DNA from: an uncultured Bacteroidota bacterium
GTDB taxonomy: Bacteria; Bacteroidota; Bacteroidia; Bacteroidales; P3
Assembly: GCA_902778925.1 (NCBI GenBank)
Contig: CACYZN010000013.1
Span: 1 to 47,960 of the forward strand
Direction: 5' to 3'
Length of the DNA stretch: 47,960 bases
Shown here piece after piece: positions 1,701-44,431 of this stretch; the stretch's first letter is position 1, and every line of letters begins with the position of its first letter. The notes below the pieces were generated by a model. The model did not search any database. It was not told the origin of the DNA and saw only the letters and a list, made by a program, of their open reading frames with translations. A program made the position numbers and the translations under genes.

Positions 1701-1709
1701 CTTATTATT

Positions 1710-1890
1710 CCTTCGGTGATCCTTCGGCAATCCCTCGGCGATCCCGGCTCGTTGCGCCGCTATACTGTCCCATATCTCCACCATATCTCCACCATATCTC
1801 CACCATATACTCACCATATACTTACCATATAGTTAGCATATACAAAACATATAGAAAGCATATACAAAACATATACAAAGCATATACAAG
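1710..1890 (+). repeat. 11-bp-period intergenic element (copy 1)
   Basis: Three GC-rich 11-mers of the type CCTTCGGTGAT (1710-1742) and a less regular stretch are followed by eleven consecutive AT-rich 11-mers at 1770-1890. These begin as CCATATCTCCA and drift to GCATATACAAA. The 11-nt spacing is exact over the eleven units. The architecture (GC-rich words at an edge, AT-rich words in the middle) matches the elements at 19632, 30007 and 37204. It is non-coding and lies in the spacer downstream of the restriction operon. Confidence 0.8.
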
Positions 1891-2081: not shown

Positions 2082-2125
2082 GTCGGCACCAAGTCAGCAC
2101 CAAGTCGGCAAGAAGTCGGCACACC
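2082..2125 (+). repeat. Four 11-bp tandem units (GTCGGCACCAA type)
   Basis: Four consecutive 11-mers: GTCGGCACCAA, GTCAGCACCAA, GTCGGCAAGAA and GTCGGCACACC. The word differs from the other 11-bp arrays but the period is the same. The last unit runs into the right-hand copy of the 24-bp direct repeat. Confidence 0.7.
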
Positions 2126-4721: not shown

Positions 4722-4754
4722 GATCCTTCGACGGTCCTTCGGCGATCCTTCGAC
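4722..4754 (+). repeat. Three 11-bp units between methylase and helicase genes
   Basis: GATCCTTCGAC, GGTCCTTCGGC and GATCCTTCGAC fill much of the 75-bp gap between the second methylase gene and the helicase gene. The words match the GC-rich edge words of the element at 1710. Confidence 0.7.
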
Positions 4755-4776
4755 GAAATTGAGTGGAAACAGCTCC

Positions 4777-12093: not shown

Positions 12094-12978
12094 ATGCGCT
12101 ACTATATCGTCGACGCTTTCACCGACCGCCCTTTCGGCGGCAACCCTGCCGGAGTGGTGCTGTTGGGAGACGAGCCGTTCCCCGACGAGGGGCTTATGCT
12201 GCAGGTGGCGGCAGAGTTGCGCTATTCCGAGACGGCCTTTGTGCGAAGGCTGTCGGCGGCGGAATACCACGTGCGCTACTTCACGCCTGCGGTCGAGGTG
12301 GAACTCTGCGGACACGCCACCGTGGCCGCCTTCGCTCTGTTGCACCGCCTCGGGTTGGCCACAGGTCATTGCATCTGCCACACGCTGGCCGGCGACCTGA
12401 CAATAGAGGCCGGCGAGCGTGTGATGATGCAGATGGCCACACCACGCATCGTCAAGACGATTGCCGACACCGGGGATATATACAAAGCTATAGGGCTGAA
12501 CTATTCAGAATTCAAAATACAGAATTCAAAATTCGACTTGCCTGTACAAATTGCCTATGCCGGCCTTAAGGATATCATGATCCCCATTCCCGATGTGGCC
12601 ACTCTCAATGCGCTGCAGCCCGACATGGAGGCCGTCGCCGCAATCACCAAAGAGTACGCGACCACCAGCTTCCACGTCTTCACCCTTCCCACTGACGCAT
12701 TAACGCAATCACACAATAACGCAATCACCGCCTATGTGCGCGACTTCGCGCCACTCTACGATATCCCCGAGGAGTCGGCTACAGGTACCGCCAACGCGGC
12801 GCTGACACACTATCTGGCCGTCAACGGTGTCATCCCCTCGCAGGGCGACTTTGCCTTCCTGCAGGGCGAAGCGATGGGGCGCCCCTCGGTGGTGGCCACC
12901 CGCATCGCCCCCGATGGTACCGTCTACGTAGGCGGCACCGCCGCTATCGTCGCCGAAGGCGAATTACTAACGCAATAG
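12094..12978 (+). CDS. PhzF family isomerase/epimerase-like protein with repeat-derived inserts
   Basis: A 294-residue member of the PhzF family (diaminopimelate epimerase fold; PhzF isomerises a phenazine precursor, most relatives have unknown substrates). Family motifs: FGGNPAGVV near 14-22, catalytic-type Glu46 in YSETAFV, LCGHATVAAF (71-80) and the C-terminal EESATGTANAAL. The start at 12094 lies 2 bp behind the small regulator gene. Two stretches look foreign to the fold and consist of repeat-type DNA: residues 137-148 (YSEFKIQNSKFD, from AATTCAAAA words) and 199-212 (PTDALTQSHNNAIT, from CGCATTAA words). The final LLTQ and stop codon also lie in a CACAATAA array. The frame is intact, so the gene is probably still functional. 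Confidence 0.85.
   Translation: MRYYIVDAFTDRPFGGNPAGVVLLGDEPFPDEGLMLQVAAELRYSETAFVRRLSAAEYHVRYFTPAVEVELCGHATVAAFALLHRLGLATGHCICHTLAGDLTIEAGERVMMQMATPRIVKTIADTGDIYKAIGLNYSEFKIQNSKFDLPVQIAYAGLKDIMIPIPDVATLNALQPDMEAVAAITKEYATTSFHVFTLPTDALTQSHNNAITAYVRDFAPLYDIPEESATGTANAALTHYLAVNGVIPSQGDFAFLQGEAMGRPSVVATRIAPDGTVYVGGTAAIVAEGELLTQ
12502..12537 (+). repeat. In-frame AATTCAAAA repeat inside phzF-like gene
   Basis: Two copies of AGAATTCAAAAT-type words separated by about 19 nt, encoding YSEFKIQNSKFD. The GC content drops sharply against the flanking gene. A related word pair lies just before the tRNA-Gln gene (40827-40850). Confidence 0.6.
12688..12729 (+). repeat. In-frame CGCATTAA repeat inside phzF-like gene
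   Basis: GACGCATTAACGCAATC and ACACAATAACGCAATC are copies of the intergenic 8-bp family. They encode DALTQSHNNAIT, which resembles NALTHSLNNA in the helicase and DALTHS in Ugd. Confidence 0.7.
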
Positions 12979-19631: not shown

Positions 19632-19752
19632 CTATCCTCTCCGGTTCCCCTCCGGTAGTTCTTATGTACTTCTTATGTATTTCTTATGTATTTCTTATGT
19701 TTTAAACATAAATACAACATAAGATATACATAGCAATAAAACGGGGCGGATG
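19632..19752 (+). repeat. 11-bp-period intergenic element (copy 2)
   Basis: Eleven successive 11-mers. Two are GC-rich (CTATCCTCTCC, GGTTCCCCTCC), four contain TTCTTA (for example TGTATTTCTTA), a central unit is TGTTTTAAACA, then come words with CATAAG sense (TAAGATATACA) and a GC-rich last unit. Left words CTTATG and right words CATAAG are complementary, so the element is roughly palindromic around TTTAAA. It is closely similar to the element at 37204-37346. It lies between the divergent dipeptidase and symporter genes. Confidence 0.8.
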
Positions 19753-30006: not shown

Positions 30007-30138
30007 GCTTCCGGATCGCCCGTTCTTATGTATTTCAACGATACTTCAACGATAGTTCTTATGTTTTTTATCGTTGAACTATCGTTGAAGTATCGTTGAA
30101 GTACATAAGAACGACCGGAGGGGATGGGGAGGGGATGG
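30007..30138 (+). repeat. 11-bp-period intergenic element (copy 3)
   Basis: Twelve successive 11-mers: GC-rich first unit GCTTCCGGATC, words with TTCTTA, words with TTCAAC (GATACTTCAAC), the centre TGTTTTTTATC, complementary words with GTTGAA, then TAAGAACGACC and two identical GC-rich units GGAGGGGATGG. It is palindromic around the T-rich centre. The inner words differ from those of the 19632 and 37204 copies but the frame of 11 is kept throughout. Confidence 0.8.
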
Positions 30139-36817: not shown

Positions 36818-36913
36818 ACCTTGTAAAAACGCCGCGCCGTCCGATTTATTGTGTGCCCCGATTCCGACCCCCTAAACACCCCCTAAACACCCCCTGGACA
36901 CCCCCTCCGCCCC

Positions 36914-37088
36914 CCACTCTCCACTCTCCACTCTCCACTCTCCACTCTCCACTCTCCACTTTCCACTCTCCACTCTCCACTCTCCACTCTCCACTTTCCA
37001 CTCTCCACTCTCCACTTTCCACTCTCCACTCTCCACTCTCCACTCTCCACTCTCCACTTTCCACTCTCCACTCTCCACTTTCCACTTC
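36914..37088 (+). repeat. Perfectly phased 7-bp array, 25 units of CCACTCT/CCACTTT
   Basis: Twenty-five contiguous heptamers, all CCACTCT or CCACTTT apart from the last. Open in all frames, it yields low-complexity reading frames on both strands (STLHSPL on plus, VESGEWR on minus) that have no start context and are not taken as genes. A four-unit version is inserted inside ugd at about 42700-42733. Preceded by C-rich CCCCTAAACAC words (36870-36910). Confidence 0.85.
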
Positions 37089-37203: not shown

Positions 37204-37346
37204 CCATCCTCTAGGGATCCCCTCCGGTACTTCTTATGTATTTCTTATGTATTTCTTATGTTTTAAACATAGATAGTACATAAGATATACATAAGAACGA
37301 TATAAGAACGATCCTACCGGAAGGCCACCGGAAGGGCAGGGGAGGG
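37204..37346 (+). repeat. 11-bp-period intergenic element (copy 4)
   Basis: Thirteen successive 11-mers: CCATCCTCTAG, GGATCCCCTCC, three TTCTTA words, the centre TGTTTTAAACA, TAGATAGTACA, TAAGATATACA, two TAAGAACGAT words, and GC-rich CTACCGGAAGG, CCACCGGAAGG, GCAGGGGAGGG. Several words are identical to the copy at 19632. It is palindromic around TTTAAA and ends 73 bp before uvrB. Confidence 0.82.
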
Positions 37347-37419: not shown

Positions 37420-39512
<2,093 letters not shown>

Positions 39513-39516
<4 letters not shown>

Positions 39517-41410: not shown

Positions 41411-41514
41411 CACATCAACGCATTAACGCACTAACACATTAACGCATTAACGCATTAACACATTAACACATTAACGCATTAACACATTAACGCATTAACA
41501 CATTAACGCATTAA
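41411..41514 (+). repeat. 8-bp tandem array directly before ugd, 13 units
   Basis: Thirteen contiguous octamers, CGCATTAA or CACATTAA with two single-base variants, running up to 7 bp before the ugd ATG. The array occupies the place of a ribosome-binding site. Unit count could vary between strains and change ugd expression (inference). Confidence 0.85.
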
Positions 41515-41521
41515 CGATTTT

Positions 41522-43012
41522 ATGAAGATTTCCGTAGCAGGTACCGGCTATGTCGGTCTCAGTATCGCCACCCTGTTGGCACAGCATAACGACGTCACTG
41601 CTGTTGACGTGGTCCCTGCACGGGTCGACCTCGTCAACAACAAGAAATCCCCCATCAAGGACGACTATATCGAGGACTATCTGGCCAACAAGCCCCTCTC
41701 GCTCAAGGCCACCCTCGACCAGGAGGCCGGCTATCGCGACGCAGAATTTGTGGTCATAGCTGCTCCTACCAACTACGACAGCCAGAAGAACTTCTTCGAC
41801 ACCAGCGCTGTCGAGTCGGTTATCGATGCGGTGCTGAAGGTCAACCCCGACGCCGTGATGGTCATCAAGAGCACCATCCCCGTAGGCTACACCCGCAGCC
41901 TCTACGTAAAATACTACAAGAAGTTTCTTCAATTAAAGGAAGAATCACTCACGCATTTACGCAATAACGCATTCCCGCATTTTAATCTGTTGTTCAGTCC
42001 TGAGTTTTTGCGCGAGAGCAAGGCCCTATACGACAACCTCTACCCCAGCCGTATCATTGTCGGCATTCCCAAGATGATGCCCGGCCCTGAATACCAGGAG
42101 GAGAACGAAGCTATCAAGACTTTGACCGACATCGACTGGCTCACCGAGAAAGCCCACCAATTCGCCGACCTCCTCGTCGAAGGAGCCATCGGCCCTTCGA
42201 AAGATTCACTTACACATTTACACATTGACGCATTAACGCAATCGCCATTAGGCGACGGTGCCATCGGCCCTTCGAAAGATTCACTTACGCATTTACACAT
42301 TGACGCATTAACGCATTCGAATTCCAAGGGAATTCCCACGCTTTTCATTGGCATGAAAGAAGCCGAGGCAGTGAAGCTCTTTGCCAACACCTATCTGGCC
42401 CTGCGCGTCAGCTACTTCAACGAGCTTGACACCTACGCTGAGATGAAGGGCCTCGACACCCAGGCCATCATCGACGGCATCGGCCTCGACCCCCGCATCG
42501 GCACCCACTACAACAACCCCAGTTTCGGCTACGGTGGCTACTGCCTGCCCAAGGACACCAAGCAGCTCCTCGCCAACTACGAGGACGTGCCCCAGAACAT
42601 GATGAGCGCCATCGTCGAGAGCAACCGCACGAGGAAAGACTTTATTGCCGACCAAGTCCTCAAAATGGCCGGCTACTATTCGTATACCGAAAACAATGAG
42701 TTCTCCACTCTCCACTCTCCACTCTCCACTCCTACTATTGGCGTGTACAGGTTAACGATGAAAAGCAACTCCGACAACTTCCGTCAGTCCGCCATCCAAG
42801 GCGTCATGAAGCGCATCAAAGCCAAGGGTGCCCAGATTATTATTTTCGAGCCTACTCTAGAAGATGGATCTACTTTTTTCGGAAGTAGAATTGTCAATGA
42901 CTTAGACGACTTTAAACGTCAAAGTCAGGCCATCATAGCAAATCGCTATGACACCTGCCTCGACGATGTAATCGATAAAGTGTATACAAGAGACATCTTT
43001 CGCAGAGATTAG
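41522..43012 (+). CDS. ugd: UDP-glucose 6-dehydrogenase with repeat-encoded insertions
   Basis: 496 residues, against 388 for E. coli Ugd, which it resembles closely. The enzyme oxidises UDP-glucose to UDP-glucuronate with NAD for surface glycans. Motifs: GTGYVGLS (7-14), [38 protein letters not shown], catalytic Cys341 in [14 protein letters not shown] and the terminal [12 protein letters not shown]. The extra length is largely low-complexity insertions encoded by repeat DNA: residues 140-154 ([14 protein letters not shown]), 221-270 (a 25-residue tandem duplication with [12 protein letters not shown]) and 389-404 ([11 protein letters not shown]). Each falls where the E. coli protein has a short linker, so activity may be kept. 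The segment from about residue 445 to 478 is AT-richer than the body, and the last 57 bases are repeated exactly downstream. Confidence 0.92.
41939..41983 (+). repeat. In-frame CGCATT repeat in ugd (insert A)
   Basis: ACTCACGCATTTACGCAATAACGCATTCCCGCATTT-type words (each 7-9 nt), encoding [13 protein letters not shown] between TR-SLYVK and the conserved [11 protein letters not shown]. Confidence 0.75.
42182..42331 (+). repeat. 75-bp tandem duplication with CGCATT words in ugd (insert B)
   Basis: Two nearly identical 75-bp units (42182-42256 and 42257-42331), each containing CACTTAC-GCATTTACACATTGACGCATTAACGCA-type words. They encode [19 protein letters not shown] twice. The unit starts at the conserved EGAI and duplicates it. 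Confidence 0.85.
42686..42733 (+). repeat. In-frame 7-bp CTCCACT repeat in ugd (insert C)
   Basis: Four CTCCACT heptamers encode [10 protein letters not shown] immediately before the conserved IGVYRL strand. The word is the same as in the 25-unit intergenic array at 36914. Confidence 0.8.
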
Positions 43013-43296: not shown

Positions 43297-43749
43297 ATGT
43301 CAGAAATAGGAGATATAATACAAGGTAAGTGCTTGGCTTTTGGCGATAGGGTAATCAAACTCAACGACTATCTGCTGGAACAGGCTGCTAACGCAAAGCC
43401 CCATTACACCATAATAAAAGGCAAGCGCGTTTACGAAAAGCCGATTCCGGTATATTTGCAGGCTGTCTCGAACCTCTGCAACCAACTTCTGAGAGCAGGT
43501 ACCTCAATAGGCGCTAATAATGCGGAAGCAACAAATGCCATAAGCAAAGCGGACTTCAAAAGCAAAAGCTTTATAGCTTTGAAAGAAGCCAGAGAATCCC
43601 TGTACTGGATTGAATTGTTGTATAGGAACAAATACTTGGACGAAAAACAGTATGCATCTATTCAAGCAGACTGTGAAGAATTGGTAAAAGTTTTAACTCA
43701 TAGGTGTAAGAAGCTCGATGAAAATGATGATAAAGCAGGAAGGAAATAA
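43297..43749 (+). CDS. Four-helix bundle protein (S23 / IVP family)
   Basis: 150 residues. The family pattern is clear: KPIPVYLQAVSNLCNQLLRAGTSIGANNAEATNAISKADFKSK split over helices two and three, then ALKEARESLYWIELLYRNKYLD and a final long helix. These proteins were first seen in 23S rRNA intervening sequences. They are structurally related to Avd, the accessory protein of diversity-generating retroelements; most chromosomal members have no known role. It starts 13 bp after the ugd-tail copy. Its last 40 bp and the sequence behind it are repeated twice more downstream. AT-rich relative to the backbone. Confidence 0.85.
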   Translation: MSEIGDIIQGKCLAFGDRVIKLNDYLLEQAANAKPHYTIIKGKRVYEKPIPVYLQAVSNLCNQLLRAGTSIGANNAEATNAISKADFKSKSFIALKEARESLYWIELLYRNKYLDEKQYASIQADCEELVKVLTHRCKKLDENDDKAGRK

Positions 43750-44030
43750 TAGACAACATCATCTACCCTACATCTTCCATCTTCCATCATACATCAGTTG
43801 GTCTACACCCGCAGAAGCTCGATGAAAATGATGATAAAGCAGGAAGGAAATAATAGACAACATCATCTACCCTACATCTTCCATCTTACATCTTCCATCA
43901 TACATCAGTTGGTCTACACCCGCAGAAGCTCGATGAAAATGATGATAAAGCAGGAAGGTAATAATAGACAACATCATCTACCCTACATCTTCCATCTTAC
44001 ATCTTCCATCATACATCAGTTGGTCTATAC
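43710..44030 (+). repeat. Three tandem copies of four-helix-gene 3' end plus VYTR word
   Basis: Units start at 43710, 43814 and 43925 (spacing 104 and 111 bp; the 7-bp difference is one CATCTTA heptamer). Each holds the last codons of the four-helix gene (KLDENDDKAG), heptamer words of CATCTTC type, and TTGGTCTACACCCGC or TTGGTCTATACAAGA, which reads as the Val-Tyr-Thr-Arg of the ugd C-terminus. The open frame created across units is not considered a gene. Confidence 0.8.
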
Positions 44031-44086: not shown

Positions 44087-44350
44087 ATGGGTGGGGCAAG
44101 AGATTTTAGAAAATACAGCGTTTGGAAAGAAGCGGTGGATTATGCCACCTATGTTTATGAGGCACATTTTCTCGATTTCGCTTTAGGTTCGGCGTTTGAG
44201 GTTGAAACCCAGTTGACAATAGCAAAGAATATAGGTTATTTTGATAACACTGACGTTAGTCGTGACATTAATTTCCAAGTGTTAATGGATAGGATACATA
44301 GTATTGAACGACAGTTGAATGGTTTGATAACCTCCATCCGTAAAAGTTAA
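44087..44350 (+). pseudogene. Four-helix bundle protein with internal in-frame deletion
   Basis: 87 residues where the family has about 115-120. The start DFRKYSVWKEAVDYATYVYE is the usual first helix. It then jumps directly to AHFLDFALGSAFEVETQLTIAKNIGYF, which is the end of helix three. The expected middle, with the SNIAEG-type turn, is missing. The frame is intact and ends RKS, with the TAA stop inside a 6-bp repeat array. It could still fold as a shorter bundle, but decay is the simplest reading. It is not a close copy of the 150-residue neighbour but another member of the family. Confidence 0.65.
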
Positions 44351-44405
44351 CGTCAAGGTTAAAGTTAAGGTCAAGGTTAAGGTCAAGGTTAAGGTTAACG
44401 TTAAC
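44346..44405 (+). repeat. 6-bp array of GTTAAG/GTCAAG, ten units
   Basis: Ten contiguous hexamers GTTAAC, GTCAAG, GTTAAA or GTTAAG. The first unit contains the stop codon of the four-helix remnant. The array fills most of the gap to the DUF3990 gene. Confidence 0.8.
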
Positions 44406-44431
44406 GTATCGCCTGAAAAAATTTTCCACCC

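Follow-up and report, generated by a model that had tools for sequence, protein, structure and literature searches.

What kind of repeat keeps a fixed step of 11 bp when its letters change? This question is raised by a spacer next to uvrB in the window, the whole stretch of 47,960 nucleotides that was analysed here, in which thirteen words of 11 bp follow one another without a break. Bacterial intergenic repeats are normally recognised by a shared sequence, whereas here the genus shares the unit length and the sequences turn over. The initial annotation had described this place and three others as one family of intergenic elements built in an 11-bp frame. The periodicity was recovered at all four places: the match at a lag of 11 bases was 0.55–0.74, compared with a best value of 0.39–0.42 among 2000 letter shuffles per place, and the lags from 5 to 23 other than 11 and 22 gave 0.19–0.38. 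When the window was scanned in segments of 110 bases at lag 11, only these four places reached a match of at least 0.55. Smaller 11-bp arrays also occur in the window according to TRF, including the three listed below with the other features.

Coordinates of the 11-bp arrays and associated features in the 47,960-nt window
Feature	Position	Strand	Evidence
Named element, 13 consecutive 11-mers	37204..37346	+	Sequence, lag-11 match 0.64
Imperfect inverted arms (hairpin) inside the 37204 element	37231..37297	+	DNA fold z -5.65
Second 11-bp array, ACCCCCTAAAC x 3.6, same spacer as the 37204 element	36867..36906	+	TRF
7-bp array, CCACTCT x 24.7, adjoining the 37204 element	36914..37086	+	TRF
uvrB, downstream neighbour of the 37204 element, anchor for the cross-genus comparison	37420..39516	+	Pfam UvrB domains
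Second copy of the 37204 family	19632..19752	+	Sequence, lag-11 match 0.61
Composite copy, long hairpin with T-rich loop	30007..30138	+	Lag-11 match 0.55, DNA fold
Direct-repeat array, little inverted symmetry	1709..1889 (1710-1890)	+	TRF, lag-11 match 0.74
11-bp array, GTCGGCACCAA x 3.7, same spacer as 1709-1889	2082..2122	+	TRF
11-bp array, GATCCTTCGAC x 3.2	4722..4756	+	TRF

In the element at 37204–37346, the words are GC-rich outside and AT-rich inside, around the centre TTTTAAACATA, and its spacer separates uvrB from a divergent FAD-dependent gene (Pfam). The copy at 19632–19752 has words in common with it, as had been described, and sits between divergent genes for an M15 peptidase and a Na:alanine symporter (Pfam). 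The composite copy at 30007–30138, with a tRNA on one side and the end of an acyltransferase gene on the other, carries CTTATG words outside and TTCAACGATAC / GTATCGTTGAA words inside, so that the reported swap of inner words is also found as described. The array at 1710–1890 lies between two same-strand genes, its words being first GC-rich (TCCTTCGGCGA) and then AT-rich (CACCATATCTC, AGCATATACAA). The inverted symmetry ascribed to three of the copies is borne out by DNA folding, with z-scores of -5.65 (37204), -5.2 (19632) and -14.4 (30007) and with 0 of 200 shuffles folding as well; the fold energy of 30007–30138 is -39.1 kcal/mol. When the window was compared with Rfam at gathering cut-offs, three tRNAs only were found, and no structured-RNA family matched the arrays. 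In an alignment, a word much like GATCCTTCGAC is present in another species (L182), at the orthologous site, which lacks the palindrome. Furthermore, 7-bp arrays (CCACTCT, ACTCATC and similar) abut several 11-bp elements, both at 36914–37086 of the window and at loci L049, L052, L053, L057, L031 and L034, and the two repeat lengths of 7 and 11 bp seem to be linked.

The core of the 37204/19632 family, searched as a 19-base pattern with at most one mismatch, gave 114 matches in the 2.23-Mb assembly of its own genome (61 forward and 53 reverse) and was absent from all 119 other genus genomes searched. The same pattern read backwards was found nowhere in the own assembly and once in one of the 119 other genomes. 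The own copies were examined in the regions at 40 scored places (156 first-look candidates) and in two 20-kb samples. Here, the 45 copies that have a 15-base core can be aligned outward from the centre in a single register, each word meeting its counterpart, and all 45 carry the word array. After the 15-base core, every one of the 45 places reads AATA or GATA and never the mirror image, which suggests one progenitor. By crude ORF calls, 43 of the 45 cores are not spanned by an ORF of at least 100 aa and two are; in four more copies the stop end of an ORF falls within 10 bases of the centre. An intergenic family with further copies in the 11-bp frame, as initially proposed, is therefore what the genome contains, and the proviso that there might be no further copies, or only ordinary slippage, is answered by these 114 cores together with the sharp peak at 11 in the genus reported below.

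The inner ~100 bases of the own copies are conserved, and the outer GC-rich 11-mers decay. On the left side the copies end at different words, and on the right side they often enter 7-bp arrays. Compared with the consensus core, local alignments of the 45 copies contain 129 substitutions and indels of 1, 2, 5, 5 and 9 bases, and one tandem doubling in the genome is spaced by 56 bases instead of 55, indicating that the 11-bp register is not absolute. The description of the words as strictly 11 bp long thus holds for the thirteen unbroken words at 37204–37346 and fails for the family, given these indels and the 56-base doubling. Further left, the block CTGAxAACCAGCTCC is present in 25 of 45 copies compared with 23 of 450 random places, and in most of the 25 it precedes the core by 84 bases. 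A stretch of the form TTTAACTTAAA...CTTAAAG...TTAAGATTT is common to several copies (e.g. L011, L035, L039, L041, L031) some 60 bases upstream of this block; given this stretch, the repeated unit may exceed 200 bp.

Three loci were sought in the sister genome: L241 and L247 are common to both sister genomes, and L238 is replaced by different DNA. One further orthologous site has no palindrome and keeps about two and a half GC-rich 11-mers. No clean empty site was found, either at L238, L241 and L247 as compared between the two sister genomes or at the further site. The own genome (93% complete) has no match to PF01797 (Y1/RAYT transposase), of which 73 of 120 genus genomes have one, and mobilisation of the RAYT/REP type in this genome is rejected on these 0 matches. 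As candidates for phage or plasmid cargo, exact patterns of two word families were compared with IMG/VR; no viral contig matched in this search, which had no positive control, and the idea was dropped.

The comparison was then widened to 78 stretches of at most 20 kb, each from a different one of the other genus genomes, mostly near uvrB and partly orthologous to each other, with an outgroup of 80 uvrB regions among the matches listed, mostly from other Bacteroidota and several from Pseudomonas. Among these listed uvrB matches none belonged to the genus, and the best, at 66%, came from an uncultured Bacteroidales record, on which the assignment to this order rests. An array was defined as a 33-base stretch with at least 72% match at a given lag within a spacer of 60–1000 bp. 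The genomes are draft assemblies, genes were called crudely as ORFs of at least 120 codons with ATG starts, the thresholds were chosen by us, and several tests were made. A lag-11 array is held by 48 of 487 genus spacers, compared with 3, 0 and 0 at lags 10, 12 and 13, and 439 spacers have none; at lags 7, 8 and 22 the counts are 16, 7 and 26, respectively. Arrays are present in 40 of the 78 genus stretches. In the outgroup, only 2 of 558 spacers pass at lag 11 (Fisher p = 2e-14 for genus versus outgroup), while 7-bp arrays do not differ clearly between genus (16/487) and outgroup (13/558; p = 0.35). Outside the ORFs of the first 38 stretches, TRF reported a unit length of 11 bp 35 times, 10 bp three times and 12 bp never. 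Isolated two-copy duplications in the genus sample, small in number, show no peak at 11 (4, 8, 10 and 5 cases for units of 8, 9, 10 and 11 bases), which speaks against a mere 11-bp mutation bias; in three own stretches, four of five such duplications are at 11.

The same plan recurs in other species with other words. Genome G007 holds at least 14 copies of a cognate family, 73–76% identical to the query over ~85 bases (14 of 51 candidates scored); its words differ, the plan is the same, and the 14 copies are mostly near-identical. Nine of these 14 copies (L045–L058) lie within ~230 bases of a contig end, so that the repeats seem to break the assembly and copy numbers from drafts may be underestimates. 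Palindromes are built of GGTAGTATTAC words around TTTAAA in G012 (L161), of ATATCAACGAT words over 112 bp in G025 (L172) and of CCTACCAACNC words in G009 and G064, with other word sets in G108, G023 and G126. The G025 words have the core TCAACGATA in common with the copy at 30007 of the window. A palindrome with this core is present in 31 of 120 genus genomes, and G025 gave 87 first-look candidates; seven near-identical 112-bp copies were displayed there, at which no target-site duplication was seen by eye, three of the seven having at most 15 bases of right flank. Since the words turn over between species, a single shared word set fails at the scale of the genus.

Some details of these palindromes were also recorded. 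The edges CCGGTA on the left and TACCGG on the right recur in the families of three species (G025, L172 and L231–L236; G023, L296 and L297; and the own genome), possibly as a recognition end. The composite palindromes L205 (at about 12509–12690), L296 and L297 (G023) have CAACGAT words in one arm and TTCTTCAGTAG in the other, with matching GC-rich edges CCGGTACGGC; in these three, words are exchanged as units, as in the copy at 30007 of the window. At the end of L235 (contig C98 of G025), the inverted repeat runs past the element into the contig-end flank, perhaps by an assembly fold-back.

Orthologous spacers show what stands at one place in different species. Among genus and own spacers, both species carry an array in 14 of 462 orthologous pairs against 3.9 expected given how frequent arrays are overall, and for spacers of at least 200 bp in 11 of 145 pairs against 4.8 expected. 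When labels were shuffled within similar spacer length, a mean of 3.9 same-group pairs was obtained compared with 13 observed (p = 0.004). The words of these same-site arrays are mostly dissimilar, with a best 22-mer identity of 0.50–0.82 and a median of about 0.62, against a median of 0.55 and a 95% level of 0.68 for shuffled 22-mers. Five of the 14 pairs reach at least 0.68, so some may have diverged by descent. Upstream of uvrB, five of 30 genomes (the own one and the best uvrB matches, the best 30 of 120) have arrays, with five word sets. The spacer downstream of uvrB also holds 11-bp arrays with different words at L149, L164 and L165 (G004, G009 and G002, respectively). In 57 of the 71 orthologous pairs with an array, only one species has it, indicating that arrays come and go. 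The orthologues L240 and L244 differ by one 11-base gap, i.e. one whole word, in agreement with the expectation that word number varies between relatives. Between the sister genomes G023 and G008, four orthologous pairs of array segments show 26 differences in 439 aligned sites, and their flanks show 154 in 1923, which suggests that constraint is slight, if any. Direct observations are the pitch, its spread through the genus, the change of words within one spacer, the placement between genes and mostly upstream of promoter-like boxes, and the single palindromic version at 114 places of the own genome. In our leading explanation, given below, the arrays keep a unit length of 11 bp, and their unit sequence would become uniform inside each array and be exchanged from one species to the next.

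Inverted arms are a property of part of these arrays. With equal numbers of 22-mers tried in the test and its controls, 15 of 48 genus arrays were found to have, within ~160 bp, an inverted 22-bp arm that agrees at no fewer than 20 positions. Three draws of foreign words gave 0 of 48 each and mirror copies gave 1 of 48; 33 of 48 arrays have no inverted arms at this cut. At 18 of 22 positions, the count was 18 of 48 against 1, 0 and 2 for the foreign-word draws and 10 for the mirror copies. Hairpins of ~100 bases occur, with 52 unbroken pairs at L161 and a nearly unbroken stem at L172. L242 and L249, which form a pair, differ from each other in one arm and in the centre, and these changes are uncompensated.

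The words themselves are not quite arbitrary. When one word per genome from 43 genomes, with the own genome excluded, was aligned over rotations and strands, 5.50 bits were obtained compared with 5.01 ± 0.16 for permuted words (maximum 5.44 of 60). This run gives the weakest signal and is the one relied on; an earlier run with 48 words including related ones gave 6.11 against 4.89 ± 0.14 bits, and one with a single word per stretch, in which some genomes counted twice and one own locus was kept, gave 5.60 against 4.97 ± 0.12 bits. A model from half of the genomes scores the other half above permuted words in 30 of 30 splits, and among own words outside the training set 3 of 9 reach the 0.05 level. 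The consensus is degenerate, changes from run to run and does not point consistently one way with respect to hairpin centres. In a set of 123 arrays, filtered for low complexity and with several arrays per locus, 104 chain into 24 clusters at no more than two mismatches, the largest having 40 and 26 members. Either shared descent or a loose binding preference would yield such a weak common word preference.

The suggestion that the words face one side of the helix does not stand in its simple form. A strict step of 11.0 bp drifts against the 10.5 bp of B-DNA, and A and T have a more even distribution within the 11-mer than permutation of its letters would give (first harmonic, combined z = -3.5), which means that the words are not phased bends. 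Curved DNA of the A-tract type was set aside on the ground that the A/T first-harmonic amplitude is below that of permuted words. As a separate observation on the 48 genus arrays, the words are skewed between the strands in purines and pyrimidines (mean imbalance 2.04 compared with 1.35 for random 11-mers), and A/T is in excess at the sub-periods 3.67 and 2.75 (combined z of 2.7 and 3.2, respectively).

With respect to genes, arrays are found in 21 of 115 divergent, 8 of 79 convergent and 19 of 293 codirectional spacers (divergent versus codirectional, p = 0.0007). For spacers of 250–400 bp, the respective counts are 12 of 34, 3 of 16 and 5 of 61 (divergent versus codirectional, p = 0.002). 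Taking the 48 genus and 8 own arrays together, 71 gene starts are preceded by a spacer that has an array, and a TAnnTTTG box, which we take to be the Bacteroidetes -7 element, was looked for within 260 bases. At 36 of the 37 starts with a box, the array lies upstream of it, compared with 28.5 expected if arrays were placed at random (p about 0.0008), and at one it lies between box and gene; 34 of the 71 starts have no recognisable box. Where the box is visible, its position suggests that the array is probably outside the downstream transcript. A 5′ UTR or transcribed leader hairpin was considered and is disfavoured, with only 1 of 37 boxed starts having the array between box and gene.

In the open-licence literature we found no account of 11-bp word arrays in Bacteroidales, although this does not prove priority. 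The nearest description found is that of the BrickBuilt elements of Porphyromonas gingivalis, which, like MITEPgRS (MITE464), are minisatellite-bearing MITEs (PMC4596501). As far as the available part of that account goes, these elements are intergenic, species-restricted and have tandem repeats in a dispersed element, all of which is also true of the 11-bp family; BrickBuilt has 19 copies in one strain, and segments of it show promoter activity (PMC4596501). In the same excerpt, the unit of BrickBuilt and MITEPgRS is 23 or 41 nt long, and there are a leader, a tail and terminal inverted repeats of the IS5 type (PMC4596501). In contrast, the 11-bp family has an 11-bp unit, a body that may be wholly inverted and ends that vary; no target duplications were seen, and across the genus the pitch is kept as the words change. 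High-copy intergenic palindromes that differ between species are also a feature of the REP/BIME class, and the arrays described here include such palindromes. REP/BIME sequences are described, in the part of the source available, as species-specific extragenic palindromes linked to RAYT (PMC2267715), whereas the palindromes here are built of 11-bp words and the own genome lacks a Y1 transposase. Dinucleotides can show a similar period: AA/TT recurs at ~11 bp genome-wide, mostly in intergenic DNA, in E. coli according to the accessible text (PMC516772); unlike that signal, whole words repeat here and A/T is unphased.

A protein that reads an 11-bp pitch would have an analogue in plasmid segregation. 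In the available part of one account, ParR binds the 11-bp direct repeats of parC and builds a higher-order assembly on the DNA, at least two 11-bp repeats are required by ParR of plasmid R1, and the parC repeats of different systems are very unlike one another (PMC9426499). Adjacent 11-bp direct repeats are also found in the arrays here. However, parC adjoins parM and parR, while the 11-bp family occupies 114 sites, the window copies lying near uvrB, transport and peptidase genes, and its arrays are often inverted, unlike parC. No parM or parR domain was found by Pfam in ten window genes, chiefly the neighbours of the four places. By analogy and not by membership, ParR indicates that a pitch-reading protein would be possible for these arrays, and a polymerising protein, as the initial annotation had imagined, is possible.

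Our leading explanation, to which we give somewhat less than an even chance, is that these satellite arrays of turn length serve as multivalent docking or structural sites behind promoters, and that their palindromic versions have spread as species-specific families. In this docking model, the arrays would act at the DNA level, with one putative protein unit per 11 bp, and tandem or facing arrays would label the DNA behind promoters or set it apart, particularly where genes diverge. Regular spacing would be what the putative protein needs, with no more than a loose preference for words, so that words and protein may drift in step. The palindromic versions would be a by-product, in which inverted arrays spread by copying to many genomic places as dispersed families. 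A constant unit length, words that turn over while their places stay, and a position behind promoters are in better agreement with sites counted by spacing than with sites read by their letters. The model is weakened by the failure to identify a binding protein among the neighbouring genes in the window, by the 34 of 71 gene starts without a recognisable box, by substitution rates that show no clear constraint on the arrays, by the majority of spacers that lack an array and of orthologous pairs that have one in a single species only, by the clustering of arrays, through which the word preference may be shared descent, and by the place behind promoters, which may merely reflect tolerated insertion. 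The latter point belongs to the main rival, a selfish spread of MITE-like or template-switch hairpin elements with slippage and no host function, in which promoter-upstream spacers would be where insertions survive; we regard it as a serious contender, if on balance doubtful. Dispersed families fit it well: the core that is abundant in one genome and missing from 119 relatives, the near-identical copies in G025 (seven) and in G007 (mostly so among 14), the sign of a single progenitor after the core and the recurrent CCGGTA/TACCGG edges would all be expected. Yet target-site duplications were not seen by eye at the seven G025 copies, three of them with a short right flank, the own copies end at different words without a fixed end, and the only transposase type sought, Y1/RAYT, is missing from the own genome. 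Moreover, ordinary slippage leaves the direct arrays at single sites and the sharp 11-bp peak unexplained.

A further rival, which we hold to be unlikely, is DNA that responds to supercoiling, inverted arrays extruding as cruciforms or 11-bp-periodic DNA writhing when negative supercoiling accumulates between divergent promoters. It would account for the enrichment in divergent spacers, the long hairpins at L161 and L172 and the inverted arms of about a third of the arrays, and the accessible parts of two sources tie the ~11-bp period of bacterial DNA to negative supercoiling (PMC4132750) and describe the intergenic periodicity of E. coli (PMC516772). However, most arrays lack inverted arms at the cut used, the phasing of A/T letters from which bending usually arises is weaker than chance, the arm changes of L242/L249 are uncompensated, and a bending role for such periods is disputed in the available portion of another source (PMC7537859). 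More improbable still, in our judgement, is a pure mutational by-product, in which a polymerase or repair enzyme of the genus duplicates in 11-bp steps, for example by stepwise nuclease processing of hairpins, and the arrays are unselected. The change of word number by a whole step in one orthologous pair, the different words at one site in different species and the duplications at 11 in the own stretches agree with such an enzyme; against it, the two-copy duplications of the genus, few as they are, are commonest at 10 and 9, and the position behind promoters is non-random. Returning to docking sites, a more specific version appears to us rather unlikely: the unit length of about one helical turn would be selected and the sequence free to drift, with an undescribed genus-specific protein polymerising behind promoters. 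On this same version, the arrays would parallel, in prokaryotes, the eukaryotic satellites whose unit length tracks the footprint of a protein.

Should a protein read the pitch, bacterial chromosomes would be marked here in a new way, and the arrays would offer a tractable model of satellite evolution. If they are selfish or mutational, some enzyme is needed to account for the 11-bp bias itself. In both cases, the arrays provide a concrete and testable case. Apart from them, the window contains other tandem repeats at 41411–41516, 42178–42319, 43709–44027 and 44343–44407, with units of 8/24, 75, 111 and 18/6 bp, respectively.
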